Below, piece after piece: positions 30,213 through 49,249 of a DNA stretch of 64,000 nt. Every line of letters starts with the position of its first letter. Within the stretch, counting starts at the first letter, position 1. The stretch is from NCBI GenBank assembly GCA_003226295.1, contig CP029803.1:800211-864210 (forward strand). Direction: 5' to 3'. The DNA is from Candidatus Moanabacter tarae (GTDB taxonomy: Bacteria; Verrucomicrobiota; Verrucomicrobiia; Opitutales; UBA2987). The notes beneath the pieces were generated by a model. The model worked only from the letters and a program-made list of their open reading frames with translations, was not told the origin of the DNA and did no database searches. The position numbers and the translations under genes are program-made.

Positions 30213-31250
30213 TTAGTTCACAACTTCTTCTTCCGCCCGTTTTTGCAGAGCACGCATATAGGCAAGGGTGTAAGCTTCACCTATACGTGGGTCATCGCCC
30301 ATTGTTGGGATGTGGTCTGGAATTAGAGTTCCATCGTAGCCTACCTCCGCCAAAGCTTTCATTGCTTCGTACATATCGAAATAGCCGTCATCAACAAAGG
30401 TTTCTACAAAATGGGGTAGCGGTTTGTCGACGTTCCGATAGTGGACTTTGAAGATTTTACCTTGCTCTCCAAAATGATGGATAGTTTCAACAACTCCTTT
30501 GCCCATGGCCTGTCCGCCTTCTAGCCAACAGCCAATGCAGAGGCAAAGACCGACATTCGGGCTGTTTGCAATTTCAATCGCACGGCTGTATCCATCAAAG
30601 CTACTAAAAATAGGACGTGGAACTCCGCCTAGGTTCACCCCCGGGGGATCATCGGGGTGAATCCCAATCCTTACGCCAGCTTCTTCGGCTACAGGAGCGA
30701 TTTCTTGGGCGAAATAGGTGAAATTTTCCCACAATTCCTCTTCGGTGTATTCGCGAGAGTGAGTGAGTTTGCTTCCATCAATCCAAGAGTTGGATCGATC
30801 TGAATGTGAGATACTGGAAGCCTCCTTTAACCGGGATGAATCAAAGGCTCTAGCGGGGGCTCCTCCTCTTGTTTCTTCAGGCGGAGTGCTCCAGACACTG
30901 CTGGCCATGTGTGCATAGGTCGTATAGGGGATGTCCGCTTGGCCCAAATTTCGAATATGTCGCTTATACTCTTCCACTTTTTCATTTCGATTGGGCAAGT
31001 TTAGAGTAATTTCAGGAACGTTGTGGACACTATGGTTTCCCAGTCCGTAGAGCTTAATTCCACCTTCTTCAAAACGTTTACGGCGACTAAGATAGTAATC
31101 GGGACCTGCCTTTTCAGGGTCGATCCATGTAACTGCGTAATTAACACCCATTTGTCGAACGAAAGCCAATTGTTCGTTTGTGGGTTCGGGTGGCATTTGT
31201 GCAGCGACCTTGAGGCCAGGTTCGATCTTAATGTGACTTCTAACGGTCAT
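30213..31250 (-). CDS. mannonate dehydratase-like (UxuA family) protein, copy 1
   Basis: A 345-residue TIM-barrel protein of the mannonate dehydratase family. The four metal-ligand motifs are present: His in 'GIHPDDPP', Cys in 'LCLCIGCW', His in 'VHYRNV' and Asp in 'IPDHIPTM'. It differs clearly from the relative at 12128 in its N-terminal half, so it may use another aldonic acid. The C-terminus ends VVN. The start region includes 'AAAAGAGAC' just before ATG. It is the first of two near-identical tandem copies; gene dosage may be the effect. Confidence 0.8.
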   Translation of the reverse strand: MTVRSHIKIEPGLKVAAQMPPEPTNEQLAFVRQMGVNYAVTWIDPEKAGPDYYLSRRKRFEEGGIKLYGLGNHSVHNVPEITLNLPNRNEKVEEYKRHIRNLGQADIPYTTYAHMASSVWSTPPEETRGGAPARAFDSSRLKEASSISHSDRSNSWIDGSKLTHSREYTEEELWENFTYFAQEIAPVAEEAGVRIGIHPDDPPGVNLGGVPRPIFSSFDGYSRAIEIANSPNVGLCLCIGCWLEGGQAMGKGVVETIHHFGEQGKIFKVHYRNVDKPLPHFVETFVDDGYFDMYEAMKALAEVGYDGTLIPDHIPTMGDDPRIGEAYTLAYMRALQKRAEEEVVN

Positions 31251-31429: not shown

Positions 31430-32467
31430 TTAGCTCACAACTTCTTCTTCCGCCCGTTTTTGCAGAGCACGCATATAGGCAAGGGTGTAAGCTTCACCTA
31501 TACGTGGGTCATCGCCCATTGTTGGGATGTGGTCTGGAATTAGAGTTCCATCGTAGCCTACCTCCGCCAAAGCTTTCATTGCTTCGTACATATCGAAATA
31601 GCCGTCATCAACAAAGGTTTCTACAAAATGGGGTAGCGGTTTGTCGACGTTCCGATAGTGGACTTTGAAGATTTTACCTTGCTCTCCAAAATGATGGATA
31701 GTTTCAACAACTCCTTTGCCCATGGCCTGTCCGCCTTCTAGCCAACAGCCAATGCAGAGGCAAAGACCGACATTCGGGCTGTTTGCAATTTCAATCGCAC
31801 GGCTGTATCCATCAAAGCTACTAAAAATAGGACGTGGAACTCCGCCTAGGTTCACCCCCGGGGGATCATCGGGGTGAATCCCAATCCTTACGCCAGCTTC
31901 TTCGGCTACAGGAGCGATTTCTTGGGCGAAATAGGTGAAATTTTCCCACAATTCCTCTTCGGTGTATTCGCGAGAGTGAGTGAGTTTGCTTCCATCAATC
32001 CAAGAGTTGGATCGATCTGAATGTGAGATACTGGAAGCCTCCTTTAACCGGGATGAATCAAAGGCTCTAGCGGGGGCTCCTCCTCTTGTTTCTTCAGGCG
32101 GAGTGCTCCAGACACTGCTGGCCATGTGTGCATAGGTCGTATAGGGGATGTCCGCTTGGCCCAAATTTCGAATATGTCGCTTATACTCTTCCACTTTTTC
32201 ATTTCGATTGGGCAAGTTTAGAGTAATTTCAGGAACGTTGTGGACACTATGGTTTCCCAGTCCGTAGAGCTTAATTCCACCTTCTTCAAAACGTTTACGG
32301 CGACTAAGATAGTAATCGGGACCTGCCTTTTCAGGGTCGATCCATGTAACTGCGTAATTAACACCCATTTGTCGAACGAAAGCCAATTGTTCGTTTGTGG
32401 GTTCGGGTGGCATTTGTGCAGCGACCTTGAGGCCAGGTTCGATCTTAATGTGACTTCTAACGGTCAT
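31430..32467 (-). CDS. mannonate dehydratase-like (UxuA family) protein, copy 2
   Basis: Identical in protein sequence to the copy at 30213 except for the last residue (Ser instead of Asn). All metal-ligand motifs are kept, so both copies should be active. Each copy carries its own upstream flank of about 70 bp; copy 2 lies nearest the original upstream region, while copy 1 has the duplicated flank only. Transcription of copy 1 may therefore come by read-through from copy 2. Confidence 0.8.
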   Translation of the reverse strand: MTVRSHIKIEPGLKVAAQMPPEPTNEQLAFVRQMGVNYAVTWIDPEKAGPDYYLSRRKRFEEGGIKLYGLGNHSVHNVPEITLNLPNRNEKVEEYKRHIRNLGQADIPYTTYAHMASSVWSTPPEETRGGAPARAFDSSRLKEASSISHSDRSNSWIDGSKLTHSREYTEEELWENFTYFAQEIAPVAEEAGVRIGIHPDDPPGVNLGGVPRPIFSSFDGYSRAIEIANSPNVGLCLCIGCWLEGGQAMGKGVVETIHHFGEQGKIFKVHYRNVDKPLPHFVETFVDDGYFDMYEAMKALAEVGYDGTLIPDHIPTMGDDPRIGEAYTLAYMRALQKRAEEEVVS

Positions 32468-34740: not shown

Positions 34741-36150
34741 TTACCAACGCCCGCTAGCATTACAAGGGCGTTGATTTTGTAGGTTTTTAACCGATTTTAG
34801 AGGATCTTCAAACTGGCTAAAATTATTTTCTAAGACGATCGAAAGATCCATTATCTCATTTTGATAAGACGGTGTATCAATCAAGTTCGTTGTTTCTATG
34901 GGGTCAACCGTTAGGTCGTAAAATTCGTCGGGGTATCGGTCGCTATGGGGCGAATAGCGGCGAATGAGTTTTTTTTTGCCATTGGAGATCATTCTAGCAG
35001 GTCCGTACTCGCAAAATTGATATTTACGCCAGCCGTTATTAGGATGATGCAGAAGTTGAAAGAGACTTCTCCCTGGAGTATTTATCTTCGCCTGGAGGCT
35101 GTGAGGTAAGCTAATCCCGGCGGCGTCTAGGATCGTAGCGAACAAGTCGCAGTGATCAAATGGGACATGTTGCATTTGTCGAGAAGGCAGAACAGTCTCC
35201 CAGCGTAGGATGTAGGGCACACGGATCGACTCTTCATAGAAATTTTGAGGGATAGAGGATGGCCCCTTTCCCCAAAGTCCATGATGGCCCGTCATATAAC
35301 CGTGGTCAGACGTATAGATTAATAGGGTGTTTTCAAGATCTGAACTGAGATCGAGTTCGTCAAGGAGGAGTCCAATCTGATCATCGATCATAGATACAGC
35401 CGCGTAGTATTGCGCTAAGGATTCATTGCGATTTAACGGTTCATCGCTTCCGAAACTCCATCTTTCCGGAGTCGACTTATAATGAGATTTTGCGTTTTCT
35501 GGTATATCCCAGAAATGGGATTTTTGATACTGTTCAACCAATCGTTTAGGATGCCCTTCTTGGGGGGAATGGGTATCAACTGGGGCATAAAAACAAAAGA
35601 AAGGTTTGGTGGTATCCCGTGATCGGAGGAAATCTATGGCTTGTCGACAAAGATAGCGGGATTGAAAGTCGTTAACGACAACTTTTTGACCCTGATCGGA
35701 AAAAAAGACAGGTCCTTTATGGAGATACTGGTTCTTCCATCCAGCCGTATTGCTATCGAAGCTTACCCAGCGATCAAAACCGGGTTGTGGTGACACACTG
35801 TCAACTGTACAGTGCCATTTACCAATGAGAGCAGTTTGGTAACCTTGTTCTTGTAATAATTGAGGAAGGGTAATTTCATCCTTCATCCATCCGATTTCAA
35901 ACTCGGGTGATCCAGTGGCGATAAAATCGTGAATCCCGTGCTGTGATGGCCGTCTTCCGGTGAAAAACGAAGCACGAGCTGGAGAGCATACGGGACAGGG
36001 CGTATAACCGTTTTGCATAATAAGACCGGTTTCCGCTAAGTAGTCAATATTAGGAGATCGAATTTCGGAGTTGCCGTAGGTGTGCGAAGCCCATTGGGCA
36101 TGGTCATCGCTGAGGATCACAAGAATGTTGGGTTGTTGGGGAGATTGCAT
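34741..36150 (-). CDS. sulfatase (formylglycine-dependent type)
   Basis: A 469-residue sulfatase with the canonical signature C55-S-P-A-R-A-S-F-F-T-G and metal-binding D15-D16 in 'ILSDDH'. 'GKWHC' and 'TSDHGYMTGHHG' are the later conserved pieces. It has no signal peptide. The gene lies 176 bp after a second sulfatase-family gene on the same strand, so the pair could be co-transcribed. The sequence resembles iduronate- or choline-sulfatase-like groups only loosely; substrate unknown. Confidence 0.9.
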   Translation of the reverse strand: MQSPQQPNILVILSDDHAQWASHTYGNSEIRSPNIDYLAETGLIMQNGYTPCPVCSPARASFFTGRRPSQHGIHDFIATGSPEFEIGWMKDEITLPQLLQEQGYQTALIGKWHCTVDSVSPQPGFDRWVSFDSNTAGWKNQYLHKGPVFFSDQGQKVVVNDFQSRYLCRQAIDFLRSRDTTKPFFCFYAPVDTHSPQEGHPKRLVEQYQKSHFWDIPENAKSHYKSTPERWSFGSDEPLNRNESLAQYYAAVSMIDDQIGLLLDELDLSSDLENTLLIYTSDHGYMTGHHGLWGKGPSSIPQNFYEESIRVPYILRWETVLPSRQMQHVPFDHCDLFATILDAAGISLPHSLQAKINTPGRSLFQLLHHPNNGWRKYQFCEYGPARMISNGKKKLIRRYSPHSDRYPDEFYDLTVDPIETTNLIDTPSYQNEIMDLSIVLENNFSQFEDPLKSVKNLQNQRPCNASGRW

Positions 36151-37763: not shown

Positions 37764-38304
37764 TCAGTAATAAACAAGTGGATTAAGATTTCTTAGTTTC
37801 TATTAAAATGTTTCTCAAGCGTCGAAATTTTCTTCGGTAGCCTTCCATTTATAGCAGTATTATATGAAAGGCGAGCTGTGTTTATGGCCTTAAAAATCAA
37901 ATTTTCTGGCACATTTTTAACTGTAAATTTGATTCACCTTTTTGATGGAAATACGTCCTTAAGTGCTTTCTTATGCGAGCTTTTATAGGTTAACCAAAAA
38001 TATTCAGGAATACTAGACCTTTGTATTGAACATCGGATCCAGTGGTTACCGGTAATGTTCACAATGACATAGGGTTGAATACTCACAAGTCGATGAATGA
38101 ACTCAGGAAGGTTTACACAGTAGCCTGATCGCGATCCGAGATGGCCGCGTCTAAGGAACTTCTGGCATAGCAACATTCATAGAAGCAGATATATTCAGCC
38201 TGCCTCAAACTACTAACAAAAACCTCGATGTATTCAGAGGACCTTTGCGATGTTTAGAATTTGTTTTCTTGATCAATGGAGAAGAAAATTCATGATTTTT
38301 AGTG
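37764..38304. other. long divergent intergenic region
   Basis: About 540 bp between the sulfatase-like gene and a PhyH gene. A minus-strand ORF of 80 codons (37934-38176) exists but lacks a ribosome binding site and any recognised motif; I do not count it as a gene. Confidence 0.4.
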
Positions 38305-39177
38305 ATGCCAGAATTAAAGCTCAATCTAACGCACAAGCTGACACCCGAACAGCAGTACGAGTTCGACATTAAAGGTTACATAGTCCTACGGAATCACTAC
38401 GATTCGGATATTGTGACCCAACTGCATCATGGTATCGATGAGCTGCAGGGAATTCCTGTTGACTTCGATACCTACAGAAAGCTTGGTGTGGCCAGCTACG
38501 ACCTCGCTCCAGCCATGGATGACCCGAAGCATGAATTCTGGAATGGCAGAGATTCTGGAAGTCCAAAAACGCCAATCTGGAAAGTTGAACACTCGATTTG
38601 CGGCACCGAGAAATTTGACGTTATCGTACGCGATGCGATTCTCGAAGACATTCACTCAGCTCTCGCTGGAAGCACGATCTTCATTTCTGCAACTTATTAC
38701 ATCGAGAAGATCGGGCCCTCTTCGAGTGTTGTGAGTGGCCTCCATAACGGCGGATTCCCGCCTGACAGGCACATTTATTACGCCTACGATCACGCGAATC
38801 GTCGCTTCAATTGTTCCAGCACAAAAAGCGTAATTATTCTTTCCGATATGACAAAGGTCGAAAATGGCCCCTTTGCAGCTATACCCGGTAGTCATAAGGC
38901 GAATTTTAGAAATCCCTTCGGCACAAGAGAAGAGGACAATCCAATGGTCGTACCGGTTTTTGCCGATCCCGGCGATGTGATAATCTTCAGCGAAGGTATG
39001 ACGCATGGTGCTTATCCAGTAACGAACAATATCGTTCGCCGGTCAGTTTTTTTTAATTACATGCCCTCTATCAATCGGGACAATTTGCCGAAACAACGCA
39101 TGTCTATGTACCCGGACCATGTGCTCCAGCGCCTTAATGACAGGGCACATCTTCTCACTGCGTCCGGATACATCTAA
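38305..39177 (+). CDS. PhyH-family protein with HxG in place of HxD
   Basis: A 290-residue protein of the phytanoyl-CoA dioxygenase family, recognisable from 'GPFAAIPGSHKANF' and the distal His H234 in 'GMTHGAYP' with R245 or R246 as the 2-oxoglutarate contact. The first iron-ligand motif reads H147-N-G149 in 'SGLHNGGFPP'; the carboxylate ligand Asp is missing. In 2OG halogenases a Gly or Ala here leaves room for chloride. A large environmental PhyH subgroup shares an 'LHGG' motif, so this may be a lineage feature of unknown chemistry. ATG is chosen over a GTG one codon upstream. Confidence 0.78.
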   Translation: MPELKLNLTHKLTPEQQYEFDIKGYIVLRNHYDSDIVTQLHHGIDELQGIPVDFDTYRKLGVASYDLAPAMDDPKHEFWNGRDSGSPKTPIWKVEHSICGTEKFDVIVRDAILEDIHSALAGSTIFISATYYIEKIGPSSSVVSGLHNGGFPPDRHIYYAYDHANRRFNCSSTKSVIILSDMTKVENGPFAAIPGSHKANFRNPFGTREEDNPMVVPVFADPGDVIIFSEGMTHGAYPVTNNIVRRSVFFNYMPSINRDNLPKQRMSMYPDHVLQRLNDRAHLLTASGYI

Positions 39178-39906: not shown

Positions 39907-40689
39907 CTAGACTCTTCCACTTAACGATCTTCCACGCACTTGTCTGAATTGGGGTTTTTGGGGTGCGTCTTTAATGGATTCATCCTTGAATGAAGAAGCC
40001 CGCATGTAGTGAGTAGCGTAACCCCGGCGTCGCATTTGGGACAAATTAGCGTTGCTCTGATGGAGCACGAGACTATGGTGAAAACTGATACTCCCGCGAG
40101 ATAGAGGAACGGGTATGACCGGCCACCGACCTCTATCCAAGTCGTCGGTAATAGGGCTTAGTCGATGTCCCCTAAGCATTCCCCATTGATGGGTTCCGGG
40201 GGCAAAATTAAGACAACCGTTTTCAGTTGTTGCGTGATCGATAGCAGTCCAGGCGGTGATAAGGTCCATAGGCACTATGTCCCTCCATGAAGCCGAGTCC
40301 TGGTGCCAGGGCTGGGCGCTTCCTGTATTAGATGCTTTCATAAAAAGTTGGTCTCCGTAGAGCTTTATATCTTCGGTGTTTAATAGGTCGGAAATAACAT
40401 CAACAATCTTTGAGTTTGTGGCGTGAGCCCACATTGTATCGTCGTGGACGGCGAGGTCACTAAGCTTTCTGACTGATAGTACTCGATCTGAGACTAGCTT
40501 CCCTTCATTTCTAAACACCGGCTCTAGCTGGATGCTCGATTCTGGGATGTGTCCTAGTCGACCTGAGGCGATAAGATCGCAATGATCAGCGAGGATATCG
40601 ACTTCCAAAGAGGATAAAACGCTCTTTAAGACGAGGTAGCCGTTTAATCTGAATTGTTTGATCTGATTTTGAGTTAATGATAGTGGCAT
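39907..40689 (-). CDS. phytanoyl-CoA dioxygenase (PhyH)-family protein
   Basis: A 260-residue 2-oxoglutarate/Fe(II) oxygenase with an intact triad: H129-x-D131 in 'QPWHQDSA' and H210 in 'LVLHQSNAN', followed by an Arg cluster (R220-R222) for 2-oxoglutarate. The 'ENGCLNFAPGTHQWG' stretch is standard for the family. The N-terminus starts 'LTQNQIKQFRLNGYLVL', also typical. Single-gene unit; substrate unknown. Confidence 0.87.
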   Translation of the reverse strand: MPLSLTQNQIKQFRLNGYLVLKSVLSSLEVDILADHCDLIASGRLGHIPESSIQLEPVFRNEGKLVSDRVLSVRKLSDLAVHDDTMWAHATNSKIVDVISDLLNTEDIKLYGDQLFMKASNTGSAQPWHQDSASWRDIVPMDLITAWTAIDHATTENGCLNFAPGTHQWGMLRGHRLSPITDDLDRGRWPVIPVPLSRGSISFHHSLVLHQSNANLSQMRRRGYATHYMRASSFKDESIKDAPQKPQFRQVRGRSLSGRV

Positions 40690-40986: not shown

Positions 40987-41961
40987 ATGAATGAGATGAA
41001 AGAACTAAAACTAGTTGTAATGGATGGGGTCTGGACAGAATGGCTCGATGACTATGAGGCCGTGTCTGATCGGGTGAAGGCTGTAGCTGCCACAACTGAG
41101 AAGATGCTCCTTGCAGAGGTAAAAAATGCGGATATCGTATTTGGAAGATTGCCTCGCGAGCCTTTTCTTGCAGCGCAGAAACTGAAGTGGGTTCAAAGCA
41201 TTGGAGTAGGTTTTGAGACGATGCTTTATACCGAGATGGTCGAGAGCGACGTTGTTATCACTAACACGGCCGGAGCTTTCGATGTAGCCATGGCAGAACA
41301 CGTGTTGGCTTTGATTCTAAGTTGGACTCGCGGGGTTATCACGGCGGAACGGAATCGTTCGATTCGCTATTATACTAGAGATATTTCAGTTTCCGAGATT
41401 GCCGGACGGCGAGCTTGCGTGCTCGGTTTAGGGACAATTGGGCGGAAAATATCTAGTCATCTGCATGGTATCGGCATGCGAATTACAGCTGTCGATGCGC
41501 AAGTTGCGGTACCGCCGGAGTGCGTAGAGGAATTAGTTAAACCTGATCGACTTTACGAAGTTTTAGGGAAATCCGAATTCCTTATCGTTGCACTACCTCT
41601 GACAGATGGAACCCGCGGATTGGTAGATAAGAAGTGTTTTGAGGCTATGCCACCCCATGCATATGTCGTTAACATTGCTCGAGGGGGAATTATCAATGAG
41701 AGAGATCTTATAAAGGCATTGCAATTGGGTAAGATTGCGGGTGCGGGAATTGACGTTTATGAAGAAGAGCCTCTTCCGGAAGACAATCCTTTGTGGAGCA
41801 TCGACAATGCTGTTATAACACCACATCTTGCAGGCCTTTCCTCAGAGGGGCATGAAAACATGCGTAAGATATTATGTGAGAACCTCCACCGATACACTAA
41901 CGGGGAAGCTCTTATGAATGTTGTGGATAAGAAGAGGGGGTATGTGATTCAATCGGTGTAG
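40987..41961 (+). CDS. D-isomer-specific 2-hydroxyacid dehydrogenase
   Basis: A 324-residue NAD-dependent dehydrogenase interconverting 2-hydroxy- and 2-keto-acids. The NAD loop is 'GLGTIGRKI', and the catalytic triad lies in 'NIARGGIINE' (Arg), 'GIDVYEEEPLPEDNPLW' (Glu) and 'TPHLAG' (His). It resembles glyoxylate/hydroxypyruvate reductase and phosphoglycerate dehydrogenase-like proteins. An aldehyde dehydrogenase follows on the same strand, so the pair could handle C2-C4 products of sugar-acid cleavage such as tartronate semialdehyde or glycolaldehyde; this is inference. Confidence 0.9.
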   Translation: MNEMKELKLVVMDGVWTEWLDDYEAVSDRVKAVAATTEKMLLAEVKNADIVFGRLPREPFLAAQKLKWVQSIGVGFETMLYTEMVESDVVITNTAGAFDVAMAEHVLALILSWTRGVITAERNRSIRYYTRDISVSEIAGRRACVLGLGTIGRKISSHLHGIGMRITAVDAQVAVPPECVEELVKPDRLYEVLGKSEFLIVALPLTDGTRGLVDKKCFEAMPPHAYVVNIARGGIINERDLIKALQLGKIAGAGIDVYEEEPLPEDNPLWSIDNAVITPHLAGLSSEGHENMRKILCENLHRYTNGEALMNVVDKKRGYVIQSV

Positions 41962-42220
41962 ATATTCGGTTTAAAAGGGCACTTCCTGGAATTGTATAAA
42001 TTCATGAATTTTAATGAGGTGCTTGGATCATAACCAATCCATTGATGCTCTGGATGTCCCCCTGTACGGTGAAGGGAAAATAGGCCGGGTGGGTTGCATT
42101 GTGGGAATCTCTAATGTTGAAATTATTGTTTTTGATTCCCTTGCAACTCTCTAGCCCATACGTAATTAACATCCAATTTAATTGAACAAAATAAGATCTA
42201 AAGGAACGTTCGAATATACA

Positions 42221-43669
42221 ATGCAATACCAGAACTATATCAACGGAGAATTTGTCGGCTCATCGGACGGCCAGACTTTCGAGCAGAGAGATCCTGCGAA
42301 TCTTCAAAACGTGACGGGCGAGTGGCCCAAAAGTACACGAGAAGATGCCAGGAATGCGATCGAGGCTGCTCATAAAGCTTTCCCGTCCTGGGCTGATTTG
42401 GGTGTGTATCAGAGGGCAGAGATTATGTCGAAAGCGGTGGCCGCTATGAAATCTCGAACTGAAGAAATAGTTGCTGCTTTAAATGAAGAAAATGGCAAGA
42501 CACTGGAAGAAGCACGGACGGAGGTATCGTCGGCCATCCGAGAGTCTGAATTTCAGATATCTCAAGGATTATCCATGTGTGGAGAGACCGCACCTTCTGC
42601 TCAGAAGGGAGTTTTTGCCTACAGTGTGAGGCGCCCTGTGGGGGTTTCAGCGATTATCAGTCCATGGAATTTCCCTTTTAATGTACCCGGCCGAAAATGC
42701 ACTCCTGCGTTGATAAGTGGCAATACGATCGTTTTCAAACCGGCTAGTTTAACTCCAAAAGTTGGGCGCCTCTTCCTGGATCTTTACATTGAGGCAGGAT
42801 TACCTCCAGGTGTACTGAATTTTGTCACAGGGGGCGGATCTACGGTTGGTGAAGAGATGATTACTAATCCACTGGTTGAGACGATCTCTTTCACGGGTTC
42901 TACAGACGTCGGAAAGGGAATTCAGCAAAGTGTTGCTCAGAACTTGAAACGTACCCAACTCGAACTTGGCGGGAAAAACCCGGCTATTGTACTGGAAGAT
43001 GCTGACTTAGGAAAATCCGTCGAAGCGGTCGCTACCGCAGCATTTGCCTGTGCTGGACAGTGGTGTACTTCAACTAGTCGTGCGATTGTGGTGCGTAGCG
43101 TTGCAGATGCGTTTACAGAGAAGCTTTTGGAAAGGGTTGGATCTATGCGTGTGGGCGATGGACGGTCTGCCGATGTGGATATGGGACCGGTCTGTGGTAC
43201 GGACCAGCTTGAGACGATTTTGAATTATATAGATATTGGAAAGAAGGAGGGGGCCAACTTGATTCAAGGTGGTCTCCGAATGATGGAAAATGGGCTAAAT
43301 CAAGGTTGTTTCATTGAACCGACTGTTTTTACTGATGTCCAATCTGAGATGAGGATTGCCCAGGAAGAAATTTTTGGGCCAGTTCTAAGCGTAATGATCG
43401 CTGAAGATTTCGAAGAGGCACTCGAGCTCGCTAACAATATAGAATTTGGGCTAACTTCATCAATTTTTACTCAGGACATATCTAGAGCTTTTCAATTTTT
43501 GGATAAGACCGAAGTAGGATTGACGCACGTGAATATGATGACGGCTTACCGTGAACCACAACTCTCATTCGGTGGTGTCAAATCCTCGGGTCACGGCATT
43601 CCTGAGTCGGGAAGAACTGGAATAGAATTTTTTACGGAACATAAGGTTGCTTTTATCAATTACATGTAG
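42221..43669 (+). CDS. NAD(P)-dependent aldehyde dehydrogenase
   Basis: A 482-residue aldehyde dehydrogenase. The start is set at ATG 42221 ('MQYQNYINGEFV'), the normal family beginning; a TTG 13 codons upstream is less likely. Catalytic residues are C282 in 'GQWCTSTS', E248 in 'LELGGKNP', N150 in 'SPWNFPFN' and K173. It resembles 2-oxoglutarate-semialdehyde and succinate-semialdehyde dehydrogenases, which end oxidative sugar-acid pathways. It follows the hydroxyacid dehydrogenase and precedes a PhyH gene by about 50 bp. Confidence 0.92.
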   Translation: MQYQNYINGEFVGSSDGQTFEQRDPANLQNVTGEWPKSTREDARNAIEAAHKAFPSWADLGVYQRAEIMSKAVAAMKSRTEEIVAALNEENGKTLEEARTEVSSAIRESEFQISQGLSMCGETAPSAQKGVFAYSVRRPVGVSAIISPWNFPFNVPGRKCTPALISGNTIVFKPASLTPKVGRLFLDLYIEAGLPPGVLNFVTGGGSTVGEEMITNPLVETISFTGSTDVGKGIQQSVAQNLKRTQLELGGKNPAIVLEDADLGKSVEAVATAAFACAGQWCTSTSRAIVVRSVADAFTEKLLERVGSMRVGDGRSADVDMGPVCGTDQLETILNYIDIGKKEGANLIQGGLRMMENGLNQGCFIEPTVFTDVQSEMRIAQEEIFGPVLSVMIAEDFEEALELANNIEFGLTSSIFTQDISRAFQFLDKTEVGLTHVNMMTAYREPQLSFGGVKSSGHGIPESGRTGIEFFTEHKVAFINYM

Positions 43670-44745: not shown

Positions 44746-45858
44746 ATGAACGACTCACAGAAATTTCTGAAAGACAGAACAATCAACTGGTACCGTTCCC
44801 GGATAGATCCTAAAACAATGAGGGAATTAGTTCAGCGGAGTGATTTCCAAGGATTCCGTCAGGCATTGGGGCACTTAGGTCTATGTACTATTACTGGTAC
44901 GCTGGCTTATCTTTTGTTTCTTTGGATGAATGGAGAAAATTGGTTATGGTCTCTTCCACTCCTTCTTGTTGCCTTATTCCTTCACGGAACGTTCTCCAGT
45001 TTCCTTGGAGGGACTGCTTGTCACGAACTTATGCACCGGACACCTTTTAAAACAAAGGCGTTGAACGAATTTTTTTTGAGGATTTTCGCATTTTTAGGGT
45101 GGTGGGACTATGTCTGGTTTCGTCCCAGTCATATTAAGCATCACCAAGTAACGGTCCACAATGATTATGATGGAGAGGTTGTTCTTCCCGCTAAGTTTAC
45201 TTTCAAAGATTGGCGATTCTGGCTCCGACTGTTTGGGTGGGATCCGCTGGCTACGTGGGATACTTTGAAGATCTACTTTAAAAGGGCAACTGGGCATATG
45301 GATAACGAGTGGTATGAGTTCTTAATGCCTGAACATGACCAGAAACTTCGCAGCAAACATCAAAATTGGGCTCGGTACACGCTTTGGGGCCACGCAGCGA
45401 TAGCCATCTTATGCATCACCACTGGACACTGGTTTCTTATAGTGCTAATAAATGGAAGGCAATACTGCGGGTGGTTGCAATTTCTGTGCGGGCAGCCGCA
45501 GCATTTTGGACTCTCTCCTAATGTTCCAGACCACCGTCTTTGCTGCCGGACCTTCACTTGTTCCTGGTTGCCCGCCTTCCTCTACTGGAATATGCAACAT
45601 CACATCGAGCATCATATGTTTCCTGCAGTTCCATTCTTCAATTTACCAAAACTGCGTGGTGTTATCGAGCACGAGATGCCGCCAGCGTCGCACGGGTTGT
45701 TAACCACCTGGAAGGGTCTATTAGAGATCCACCGTAGACAAATAAAAGATCCCGATTACGTGTTTATTCCAAAGGTCCCGAAGCCGATAGACGAAGAGAA
45801 TATCAATCGTGCTGAGGATTCCATACTTGAGCGAGAAGCAGGTCTTACGCAGGCGTGA
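44746..45858 (+). CDS. membrane fatty acid desaturase-type diiron enzyme
   Basis: A 370-residue integral membrane desaturase/hydroxylase. The three His boxes are H93-ELM-H97, H129-IKHH and 'HHIEHHMFP' near residue 285. Hydrophobic pairs lie at about residues 47-85, and further segments lie around 108-120 and 210-228. The conserved 'PNVPDHRLCCRT' piece before the last box shows the reading frame is intact. It introduces a double bond or hydroxyl into a lipid chain using an electron donor not seen here. Its link to the adjacent PhyH genes is unknown. Confidence 0.87.
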   Translation: MNDSQKFLKDRTINWYRSRIDPKTMRELVQRSDFQGFRQALGHLGLCTITGTLAYLLFLWMNGENWLWSLPLLLVALFLHGTFSSFLGGTACHELMHRTPFKTKALNEFFLRIFAFLGWWDYVWFRPSHIKHHQVTVHNDYDGEVVLPAKFTFKDWRFWLRLFGWDPLATWDTLKIYFKRATGHMDNEWYEFLMPEHDQKLRSKHQNWARYTLWGHAAIAILCITTGHWFLIVLINGRQYCGWLQFLCGQPQHFGLSPNVPDHRLCCRTFTCSWLPAFLYWNMQHHIEHHMFPAVPFFNLPKLRGVIEHEMPPASHGLLTTWKGLLEIHRRQIKDPDYVFIPKVPKPIDEENINRAEDSILEREAGLTQA

Positions 45859-46162
45859 TCTCTCTTTGTCGTTCTTGTGGGTGAAGGTTCTTTGTCCATT
45901 TCCTTAGCGTTTTAATGAAATGGGTGGATCTAAAGCCGACGCCTCTATAGTCCACTTTAGAGAAGAATAGAATCTAACATCGATGGACTAGATAAATCTC
46001 TGGAAGTTTGACTGCGGTATTCTTAAACACTGGCAATTGTGTACCAATTGTCACTTTATCCTGAGACCGCGAGATAGATATTCTATTATTTAGTCCTAGA
46101 ATGGAAACTTTATTAGGAATCTCTTCCTACATCCATTAAATCAACATGGTCTTTGTGAAGAA
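45859..46162. other. convergent intergenic gap
   Basis: About 300 bp between the desaturase and an amidohydrolase on the other strand. Only a short 7-bp inverted repeat (TAGTCCA/TGGACTA) is seen; no gene. Confidence 0.4.
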
Positions 46163-47164
46163 TTATTGTATTGGTCCGTAAGCTCTGATAGCAGTGTCAT
46201 GAAAAAGATTGGCACGATCTTTTTCTGGTAGATCAGAACTCCATTCCAGGAATTTTCTATAGAGTGCAGTAATAGTAATGCCCTGCATCTTATCCACTGG
46301 ATAATTGCTGGCAAACATACAGCGATTGCACCCGAATAACGCAATCAAATCGCGGATAATCTGTCCGACTTCTCCTCCGATTATTCGGTTCCAGTGGAAT
46401 CCGTTCCTAGCAAACCAGGGCATCGATAGTTTAACGAAAGTATTAGGGAGAGCAGCTAGGGATTCCATGCCTTCACGCCAAAGTCGCAGATGAGTTTCAT
46501 CCTCGCCGTCGTGGAGAAAACCTAAGTGATTAATAATCACATGTAGATCAGGAAAGTCCCTAAGGACTTTTTCTGCATCTGGGATCTGGTGTGGATTGCA
46601 GGAAAGGTCAAAAGAAAGGTTTCTGTTTTCTAGGAGAGCAATATTTCGACGAAAATTAGGGTTTTTGAGAATGTTTGAATCCACATTCGGCCAGGTTAAT
46701 TCTCGGTTATGTGGATGGTGATTTAGAATCATCCGTACTCCGCAGAGGCGGTTTCCAGATGCATTAATGTGTCGTTCTAAGAGGTAGTCAGACAAAGGCG
46801 TTTCCTGCGTAAGATTGAGAAATGCAACGACAGCAAATGGATGCTGTGGTGCTGTGCTGTTCAATTGTGAGCATACCCATCTAGTTTCCTCTATAATATC
46901 CGGAATCTCTGACTCTTTCGATTCCCCGACTATTGTTTCTACATGGATCCCTGAAACCCAATAAAGAGGGAAAGGCAGTTGTTTCATGTCGGTATGATAA
47001 TTTTGCGCGGAGTAAATTGGTAAAGTTTGAGCCGCTTCCCCGAGATTTGGATTAGGGTGGGCTATACAATCCCACATATGGAAGTGGGGATCGCATAAAG
47101 GAATAGGCAGGTCTTTTGCTTCGTAATGACCGTCATTCGCGATCTTCTTTTTGCTCTTCACCAT
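46163..47164 (-). CDS. amidohydrolase-family lactonase-like protein
   Basis: A 333-residue Amidohydro_2 protein of the sugar-lactonase/2-pyrone-4,6-dicarboxylate hydrolase type. It shows the N-terminal D-x-H-x-H in 'CDPHFHMWD', His in 'VIINHLGF', and 'MFASNYPVDK' near the end, the Asn form of the usual GSDxP found in fuconolactonase-like members. Unlike the protein at 6940 its metal-site residues look complete. It may open a sugar lactone. Start is the ATG opening 'MVKSKKKIAND'. Confidence 0.85.
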   Translation of the reverse strand: MVKSKKKIANDGHYEAKDLPIPLCDPHFHMWDCIAHPNPNLGEAAQTLPIYSAQNYHTDMKQLPFPLYWVSGIHVETIVGESKESEIPDIIEETRWVCSQLNSTAPQHPFAVVAFLNLTQETPLSDYLLERHINASGNRLCGVRMILNHHPHNRELTWPNVDSNILKNPNFRRNIALLENRNLSFDLSCNPHQIPDAEKVLRDFPDLHVIINHLGFLHDGEDETHLRLWREGMESLAALPNTFVKLSMPWFARNGFHWNRIIGGEVGQIIRDLIALFGCNRCMFASNYPVDKMQGITITALYRKFLEWSSDLPEKDRANLFHDTAIRAYGPIQ

Positions 47165-47442: not shown

Positions 47443-48237
47443 TCAGGTAATAGAAACCAGAAATTCCCCGGGAACGCGCGTGCCTTCGTAGGTGGCATCA
47501 GGATCGCGGTTTCTTATGGCTGCCGGCACGGGGTCTTCCCAGTAGTCAGGAACAGTCTCTGGACGTTGATGCCAGATCAATAGAAGATTTCGACTCTCGT
47601 TAGTTCGATTCTTATAAGCGGCGTGTAAAACTCGTGCATCGGCCAGAACCAGGTCTCCAGGGTTGGAATAGACATTTACTTGGTTGGGGTCATCGCTGAA
47701 CATAACGGGATGATTTTCCTCGATAAATCGAGCCCCTTGCTCGTGGGCGGTAACTAATTGATCGTGGAGAGGAATTCTCTTGAGATGGGAGCCAGGAATA
47801 ATTCTCAGACAACCATTTTCTACTCGTGTTTCTTCTAGGTAATAGGAAAGAAACATTTTTTGCGGCCAAGGGGTGCAACTAAGCGGGTCATTCCAACGCA
47901 TCCAATCTTGATGCCAATATAGCGCAGGGGCCTGTGGTTCTTTGGTCAAGACAAACAAAGAACCGAGGTGATGGAAATCGCCGAAACCAAGTTCCTCCAG
48001 GGCCCGGCGGGCAGGTAGCCAATCGCCCAACCGTTGCATAATGGTATTATCCTCAAACTTAATTCCGAGGGTTGTGCCTTGGTACTTGGCATCGGGATGA
48101 TGCTCCATTGTGGCATTTAGCCGATCCGTTTCCCTTCGAAGTTCGTTAATGAAATCCAGGCTTAGAATATCAGGGATGATACAAAACCCATCCTGAAGCA
48201 TCTGCGTACGTAAGGAATGAGCAGTTTTTGGTGTCAT
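47443..48237 (-). CDS. phytanoyl-CoA dioxygenase (PhyH)-family protein, copy 1
   Basis: A 264-residue 2-oxoglutarate/Fe(II) oxygenase with H109-x-D111 in 'LYWHQDWMRW', H205 in 'ARVLHAAYK', and 'NGCLRIIPGSHLKR'. I start at the ATG opening 'MTPKTAHSLR'; a TTG four codons upstream is possible. It is a paralogue of the PhyH gene at 43720. The second copy lies directly upstream, with 65 bp between the genes. Substrate unknown; doubled dosage may matter. Confidence 0.86.
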   Translation of the reverse strand: MTPKTAHSLRTQMLQDGFCIIPDILSLDFINELRRETDRLNATMEHHPDAKYQGTTLGIKFEDNTIMQRLGDWLPARRALEELGFGDFHHLGSLFVLTKEPQAPALYWHQDWMRWNDPLSCTPWPQKMFLSYYLEETRVENGCLRIIPGSHLKRIPLHDQLVTAHEQGARFIEENHPVMFSDDPNQVNVYSNPGDLVLADARVLHAAYKNRTNESRNLLLIWHQRPETVPDYWEDPVPAAIRNRDPDATYEGTRVPGEFLVSIT

Positions 48238-48302
48238 GAAAGCTTTCAAAGGAAACGAAAAGAATCTCGGCTCCTAATTTCTACAATTACTTGATTAGAT
48301 TT

Positions 48303-49097
48303 TCAGGTAATAGAAACCAGAAATTCCCCGGGAACGCGCGTGCCTTCGTAGGTGGCATCAGGATCGCGGTTTCTTATGGCTGCCGGCACGGGGTCTTCCC
48401 AGTAGTCAGGAACAGTCTCTGGACGTTGATGCCAGATCAATAGAAGATTTCGACTCTCGTTAGTTCGATTCTTATAAGCGGCGTGTAAAACTCGTGCATC
48501 GGCCAGAACCAGGTCTCCAGGGTTGGAATAGACATTTACTTGGTTGGGGTCATCGCTGAACATAACGGGATGATTTTCCTCGATAAATCGAGCCCCTTGC
48601 TCGTGGGCGGTAACTAATTGATCGTGGAGAGGAATTCTCTTGAGATGGGAGCCAGGAATAATTCTCAGACAACCATTTTCTACTCGTGTTTCTTCTAGGT
48701 AATAGGAAAGAAACATTTTTTGCGGCCAAGGGGTGCAACTAAGCGGGTCATTCCAACGCATCCAATCTTGATGCCAATATAGCGCAGGGGCCTGTGGTTC
48801 TTTGGTCAAGACAAACAAAGAACCGAGGTGATGGAAATCGCCGAAACCAAGTTCCTCCAGGGCCCGGCGGGCAGGTAGCCAATCGCCCAACCGTTGCATA
48901 ATGGTATTATCCTCAAACTTAATTCCGAGGGTTGTGCCTTGGTACTTGGCATCGGGATGATGCTCCATTGTGGCATTTAGCCGATCCGTTTCCCTTCGAA
49001 GTTCGTTAATGAAATCCAGGCTTAGAATATCAGGGATGATACAAAACCCATCCTGAAGCATCTGCGTACGTAAGGAATGAGCAGTTTTTGGTGTCAT
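48303..49097 (-). CDS. phytanoyl-CoA dioxygenase (PhyH)-family protein, copy 2
   Basis: Same 264-residue protein as copy 1 from the ATG onward, with the same intact HxD and distal His. This copy keeps the original upstream DNA and is probably transcribed first; copy 1 would be read through. If the TTG four codons upstream were the start, the two copies would differ at one residue (Asp here, Ala in copy 1). Confidence 0.86.
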   Translation of the reverse strand: MTPKTAHSLRTQMLQDGFCIIPDILSLDFINELRRETDRLNATMEHHPDAKYQGTTLGIKFEDNTIMQRLGDWLPARRALEELGFGDFHHLGSLFVLTKEPQAPALYWHQDWMRWNDPLSCTPWPQKMFLSYYLEETRVENGCLRIIPGSHLKRIPLHDQLVTAHEQGARFIEENHPVMFSDDPNQVNVYSNPGDLVLADARVLHAAYKNRTNESRNLLLIWHQRPETVPDYWEDPVPAAIRNRDPDATYEGTRVPGEFLVSIT

Positions 49098-49249
49098 GAA
49101 ATCTTTCAAAGGAATGGAATATTTTTAACTTAAAATTTTATGAACAGAGCAAGTTTAGAAATCAAATCAAAACCCGTTTTTGTTTCCATCCAAATCTTTT
49201 GTACTCAGGGACGATAGGGAGTTTATACTTGATGATTGTGAGTTGAAAT

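Follow-up and report, generated by a model that had tools for sequence, protein, structure and literature searches.

A HygX-like PhyH oxygenase of Candidatus Moanabacter tarae in which a conserved glutamate may stand in for the missing HxD aspartate

Enzymes of the PhyH family are recognized by an HxD...H iron triad, and the appearance of glycine or alanine in place of the acid (HxG or HxA) is routinely taken as the sign of a halogenase. The window considered here, the whole 64,000-nucleotide stretch of the Candidatus Moanabacter tarae genome that was analyzed, encodes a PhyH-family protein (hereafter P0001) that departs from the triad in this manner: both histidines are present, as H147 and H234, and G149 occupies the position of the acid (Table 1). 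When the aspartate is gone, what completes the iron site, and does its loss open a place for chloride, as the initial annotation of this locus suggested?

The membership of P0001 in the family is clear, as the Pfam model PF05721 (PhyH) matches residues 21-246 with an E-value of 8e-13 (49.6 bits against a cut-off of 22); no NCBIfam model matches the protein. An in-frame GTG at position 38302 is a possible alternative start. The motif described in the initial annotation, H147-N-G149 in place of HxD, is found at the positions given in the translated reading frame, and translation and alignment agree with it that H234, a nearby arginine and the IPGSHK stretch have been retained. This arginine, R245, is the 2OG-binding residue expected about 11 residues past the distal histidine, and its spacing of 11 residues from H234 is that seen in human PhyH, EctD and HygX. 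A sequencing slip was considered as the source of the HxG motif and rejected, as five subfamily members with 62-68% identity to P0001 read LHNGG (four) or LHSAG (one). Identities between P0001 and one subfamily member at the three codon positions are 0.72, 0.86 and 0.34, a pattern that indicates a coding gene under purifying selection.

Table 1. Positions in the window of the P0001 gene, its motif codons and neighboring genes
Feature	Coordinates	Strand	Remarks
P0001 gene	38305..39177	+	290-aa PhyH-family (HygX-like) Fe(II)/2OG oxygenase; stop codon within coordinates
Codons H147-N148-G149	38743..38751	+	First metal-binding His; Gly where HxD has its acid
IPGSHK codons (193-198)	38881..38898	+	H197 and K198 at 99-100% in the HxG group
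E230 codon	38992..38994	+	4 residues ahead of the distal His; carboxylate proposed to take over as ligand; HygX has the same residue
H234 codon	39004..39006	+	Distal metal-binding His; invariant in the HxG group
R245 codon	39037..39039	+	Arg at +11, expected binder of the 2OG C5 carboxylate; invariant in the HxG group
Sulfatase gene, divergently oriented to P0001	36327..37763	-	PF00884
Second sulfatase gene	34741..36150	-	PF00884
Ordinary PhyH gene, HQD motif	39907..40689	-	PF05721, 3e-33
2-Hydroxyacid dehydrogenase and aldehyde dehydrogenase genes	40987..43669	+	Nearest models of the latter: alpha-ketoglutaric semialdehyde dehydrogenase

The source genome, a single contig of 2.63 Mb, has 84 PhyH matches, an unusual density made up mostly of the ordinary HxD type. 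When 90 PhyH-like reading frames from this genome were gathered and aligned, 83 could be aligned at the motif, where HQD, HAD and HSD are typical of most. The acid is absent from 12 of these 83, so that HxG is not unique to P0001, and the motifs of the acid-less proteins include HNG, HSA, HGG, HGS, HMG, HMH, HRG, HGN and HCA. In 11 of the 12, an acidic residue (Glu or Asp) stands four residues ahead of the distal histidine (position -4), the place of E230 in P0001. The genome holds one close P0001 paralogue (62% identity, HSA motif); in the paralogue, L010, Ala thus occupies the acid position.

Elsewhere in the phylum, no orthologue of P0001 was found among 289 genomes at E < 1e-20. A scan of a genome collection with P0001 alone as the query likewise gave no relatives, and with the two paralogues as queries it recovered four orthologues (63-65% identity in the search) in metagenome-assembled genomes labelled Gemmatimonadota (three) and Spirochaetia (one). 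A plasmid search returned only distant partial matches, in Cupriavidus, and a phage search returned none. Given its spread over several phyla, the subfamily is old or has moved between phyla. All four orthologues read GGLHNGG, so HxG is a lasting character of the subfamily, and H147, E230, H234 and R245 are invariant across the six-member subfamily alignment.

Profile searches extended the comparison by approximately 140 further loci, giving an alignment of 245 PhyH domains, 238 of which have both histidines. The HxD acid is missing from 136 of the 238 and present in 102. An acid at position -4 is found in 131 of the acid-less domains (Glu in 108, Asp in 23) and in only 11 of those with HxD (Glu in nine, Asp in two); after sequence weighting, the entries of this table are 40.1 vs. 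4.0 and 5.5 vs. 76.7. Position 149 itself apart, none of the 211 alignable columns predicts the loss of the acid as well as that of E230. All 136 members of the HxG group retain H147, H234 and R245, and for 90 of these members the mean column identity is 24%. The residue that replaces the HxD acid is Gly in 102 of the 136 and Ser, Ala, Val, His, Asn or Thr in the other 34. With the acid at -4 nearly constant and position 149 varied, the former is retained while the old ligand site drifts.

A scan of the HxG group for acidic positions left only D21 and E230 acidic in more than 95% of members. D21 was rejected as the replacement acid because the AlphaFold model places it in an N-terminal helix, and residue 187 was rejected because P0001 itself has Asn there. 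By the terms of the initial annotation, a triad completed by a further Asp or Glu would refute its reading, and at the level of sequence E230 is a candidate for such a residue.

The coupling between E230 and loss of the HxD acid is strong in these alignments, yet it is based on few evolutionary events, too few to prove it through independent changes. In a FastTree tree the HxG proteins form nearly one clade and four state changes suffice to explain their distribution, so E230 could instead mark the clade and serve some different function. An independent-pair test of the coupling found four pairs only, approximately two agreeing and almost none opposed, and had no power. The 11 HxD proteins that also have an acid at -4 would likewise count against E230 as a ligand.

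Several relatives combine the two positions differently. HxD and Glu at -4 occur together in the PhyH proteins L145, L114, L017, L151, L154, L096 and L162, which are possible intermediates in a ligand relocation. The second domains of the double-PhyH-domain proteins L187 and L190 have neither the HxD acid nor Glu at -4 and are perhaps non-catalytic; both acids are likewise missing from a domain in L156. Four clade members, L011 among them, read HMH instead of HxD and so have a third histidine at the acid position; L011 pairs this motif with Glu at -4.

To which characterized enzymes does this group belong? A search of the PDB with a profile of 90 clade members gave HygX as the first match (E = 3e-38), then EctD (4.5e-25), with SyrB2 (1.9e-14) and CytC3 (4e-10) detectable as distant homologues. 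A single-sequence phmmer search against the PDB also reached HygX but left the HxD region unaligned, whereas the profile search aligned it. The AlphaFold model of P0001 used here was built from 90 sequences (pLDDT 87, pTM 0.88), an earlier model from 13 sequences being poor around H147. HygX entries take the first 15 places in a fold search with this model, and the entries matched include iron-bound, nickel plus 2OG, and hygromycin B forms. In the model a strand at residues 225-229 is followed by E230, and H234 begins a strand spanning 234-236, a layout that puts E230 in the turn beside the distal histidine. HygX is thus the closest solved protein by both sequence and fold, and with G149 and E230 P0001 has the HxG-type motif and the acid at -4 that mark a HygX-like clade. 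Profile, alignment and fold therefore bear out the other possibility raised in the initial annotation, that LHGG is the motif of a large subgroup within PhyH. The wider group is multi-copy, two genomes having 86 and 82 matches (E < 1e-15), some of them HxD relatives, and in the phylum of the window a match at 1e-30 is found in only 15 of 388 genomes.

The reading that best accommodates these observations, to which we assign a probability of roughly 0.6, is that P0001 is a competent Fe(II)/2OG oxygenase of the HygX-like PhyH clade in which E230 replaces the HxD aspartate as a metal ligand. Fe(II) would be held by H147, H234 and the carboxylate of E230 in a 2-His-1-Glu triad, the carboxylate entering the site left by the aspartate and the small residue at 149 making room for it, and R245 would anchor 2OG. 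With the third iron ligand shifted from HxD to E230, no halide site would stand open, and a carboxylate supplied from elsewhere would lead to an ordinary ferryl and C-H oxidation, such as hydroxylation, oxidative ring closure or oxidative ether cleavage, rather than to halogenation. The odds are about even for the broader proposal that P0001 represents a very large, uncharacterized branch of Fe/2OG oxygenases, a branch that has expanded to dozens of copies in certain bacteria and whose iron-binding carboxylate was relocated from the HxD strand to a different one, as Glu at -4.

Could chloride or bromide nonetheless bind where the acid was lost, as happens in WelO5, BesD and SyrB2? In known Fe/2OG halogenases the acid is replaced by Gly or Ala (PMC8407142); WelO5, BesD, SyrB2 and CytC3 share this trait with P0001 (G149) and L010 (Ala), and SyrB2 and CytC3 can be detected as homologues of the clade. 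However, both lie far from the clade by profile, and position 149 is not limited to Gly or Ala in the clade as it is in halogenases, since Ser, Val, His, Asn or Thr is also found there. E230 is present and coupled to the acid loss, no halogenase occurs among the 50 best fold matches of the P0001 model, and replacing the acid by Gly did not by itself make an engineered hydroxylase an efficient halogenase (PMC13244439). The chlorinating-enzyme model TIGR01762 matches neither P0001 nor, at 1e-5, any of the 90 clade members, and no protein of the source genome scores above its cut-off. Halogenase function, as put forward in the initial annotation, is therefore unlikely for P0001, and we consider the chance of it very small.

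An enzyme that binds its metal through H147 and H234 only, with water in the third site and E230 in a second-sphere or substrate role, has a precedent in human aspartate/asparagine beta-hydroxylase (AspH), which has an HXG...H motif, binds the metal by two histidines only and hydroxylates without the acid (PMC12816917). The placement of E230 at the metal is a prediction and its coupling stems from few evolutionary events, both of which leave room for such an enzyme. In P0001 and its clade, however, a coupled Glu is present, whereas AspH has two protein ligands only, and the retention of Glu or Asp at -4 in nearly all acid-less members despite very low identity, together with its rarity beside HxD, is as expected of a replacement ligand; an AspH-like site is thus a credible though rather unlikely alternative to ligation by E230. 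Least probable is that iron binding has been lost, with P0001 either a pseudoenzyme or dependent on some other cofactor. Although it is without one canonical ligand, and the second domains of some double-domain relatives are without both acids, the two histidines and the 2OG arginine do not vary in the HxG group, and in HygX, which shares the motif, binding of Fe, Ni and 2OG is seen.

What might such an oxygenase act upon? Besides the sulfatase and dehydrogenase genes close to P0001 (Table 1), the window encodes a heparinase II/III-like protein, UxuA-like proteins and an enolase. The neighborhoods of the orthologues include GH4 (L081), sulfatase, DUF6785, enolase and xylose-isomerase-like genes (L084), and fatty acid desaturase-like, PhyH and amidohydrolase genes (L083). 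This last set is found both within 10 kb of the P0001 gene (window positions 44746-47164) and in L083 (3530-6861), and is a possible conserved neighborhood. Tentatively, the substrate of P0001 may be a sugar, a sugar acid or a modified (e.g., sulfated) carbohydrate derivative, a suggestion weakened by the fact that sulfatase and sugar-gene contexts may be common in such genomes. The tandem UxuA-like genes at 30213-31250 and 31430-32467 are identical at 1037 of 1038 bases, with a unit of 1217 bp, and represent either a very recent duplication or an assembly artefact; a pair of tandem PhyH genes at 47443-48249 and 48303-49109 (806 of 807 bases identical, unit 860 bp) resembles them.

If the carboxylate has indeed been relocated in this branch, HxG is no halogenase signature in the PhyH family. 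The clade itself supplies a simple sequence rule for sorting: in PhyH proteins with HxG or HxA, Glu or Asp at -4 of the distal histidine should be looked for first. Were E230 a ligand, a major enzyme superfamily would offer a clean natural case of a ligand that has changed place, for which HygX provides the structural anchor. The clade also constitutes a large pool of untried oxygenases in bacteria rich in glycan-degradation genes.

Comparison with solved proteins places these features in context. Human PhyH (2a1x) and EctD (4mhr/3emr) share with P0001 the fold, the two histidines, the Arg at +11 and the PGSHK region, but unlike P0001 they have HxD and no acid at -4; the metal ligands of EctD are H146, D148 and H248 (PMC2871039). 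HygX, the hygromycin B oxygenase of Streptomyces hygroscopicus (4xc9, 4xca, 4xcb, and 4zpi), has the same PhyH-type fold, and its aligned stretches LHGGNSE and LLLNEALMHGT show L-H-G-G in place of HxD and, as in P0001, Glu at -4; in the 4xc9_A sequence this Glu is at position 202 and the distal histidine at 206. Both proteins also have the Arg at +11 and a GSHKANF stretch. An abstract on HygX (PNAS, 2015) reportedly describes variation in its metal coordination, which is consistent with a relocated ligand. Identity between the two is only ~20% in the fold alignment, giving no basis for assuming in P0001 the reaction of HygX, aminoglycoside orthoester formation, and P0001 appears to be set among genes of glycan and sugar catabolism and not, as HygX is, in an aminoglycoside cluster. 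HygX, AviO1, EvdO1 and EvdO2 have been described as a single set of orthosomycin oxygenases, and EvdO2 (4xab), which has the PhyH fold, is placed in the same proposed chemistry class as HygX (PMC8234114). EvdO2 keeps HQD and is without Glu at -4, unlike P0001 and HygX. One chemistry class is therefore ascribed both to an HxD enzyme and to an enzyme with HxG and Glu, and the loss of HxD here does not imply halogenation.
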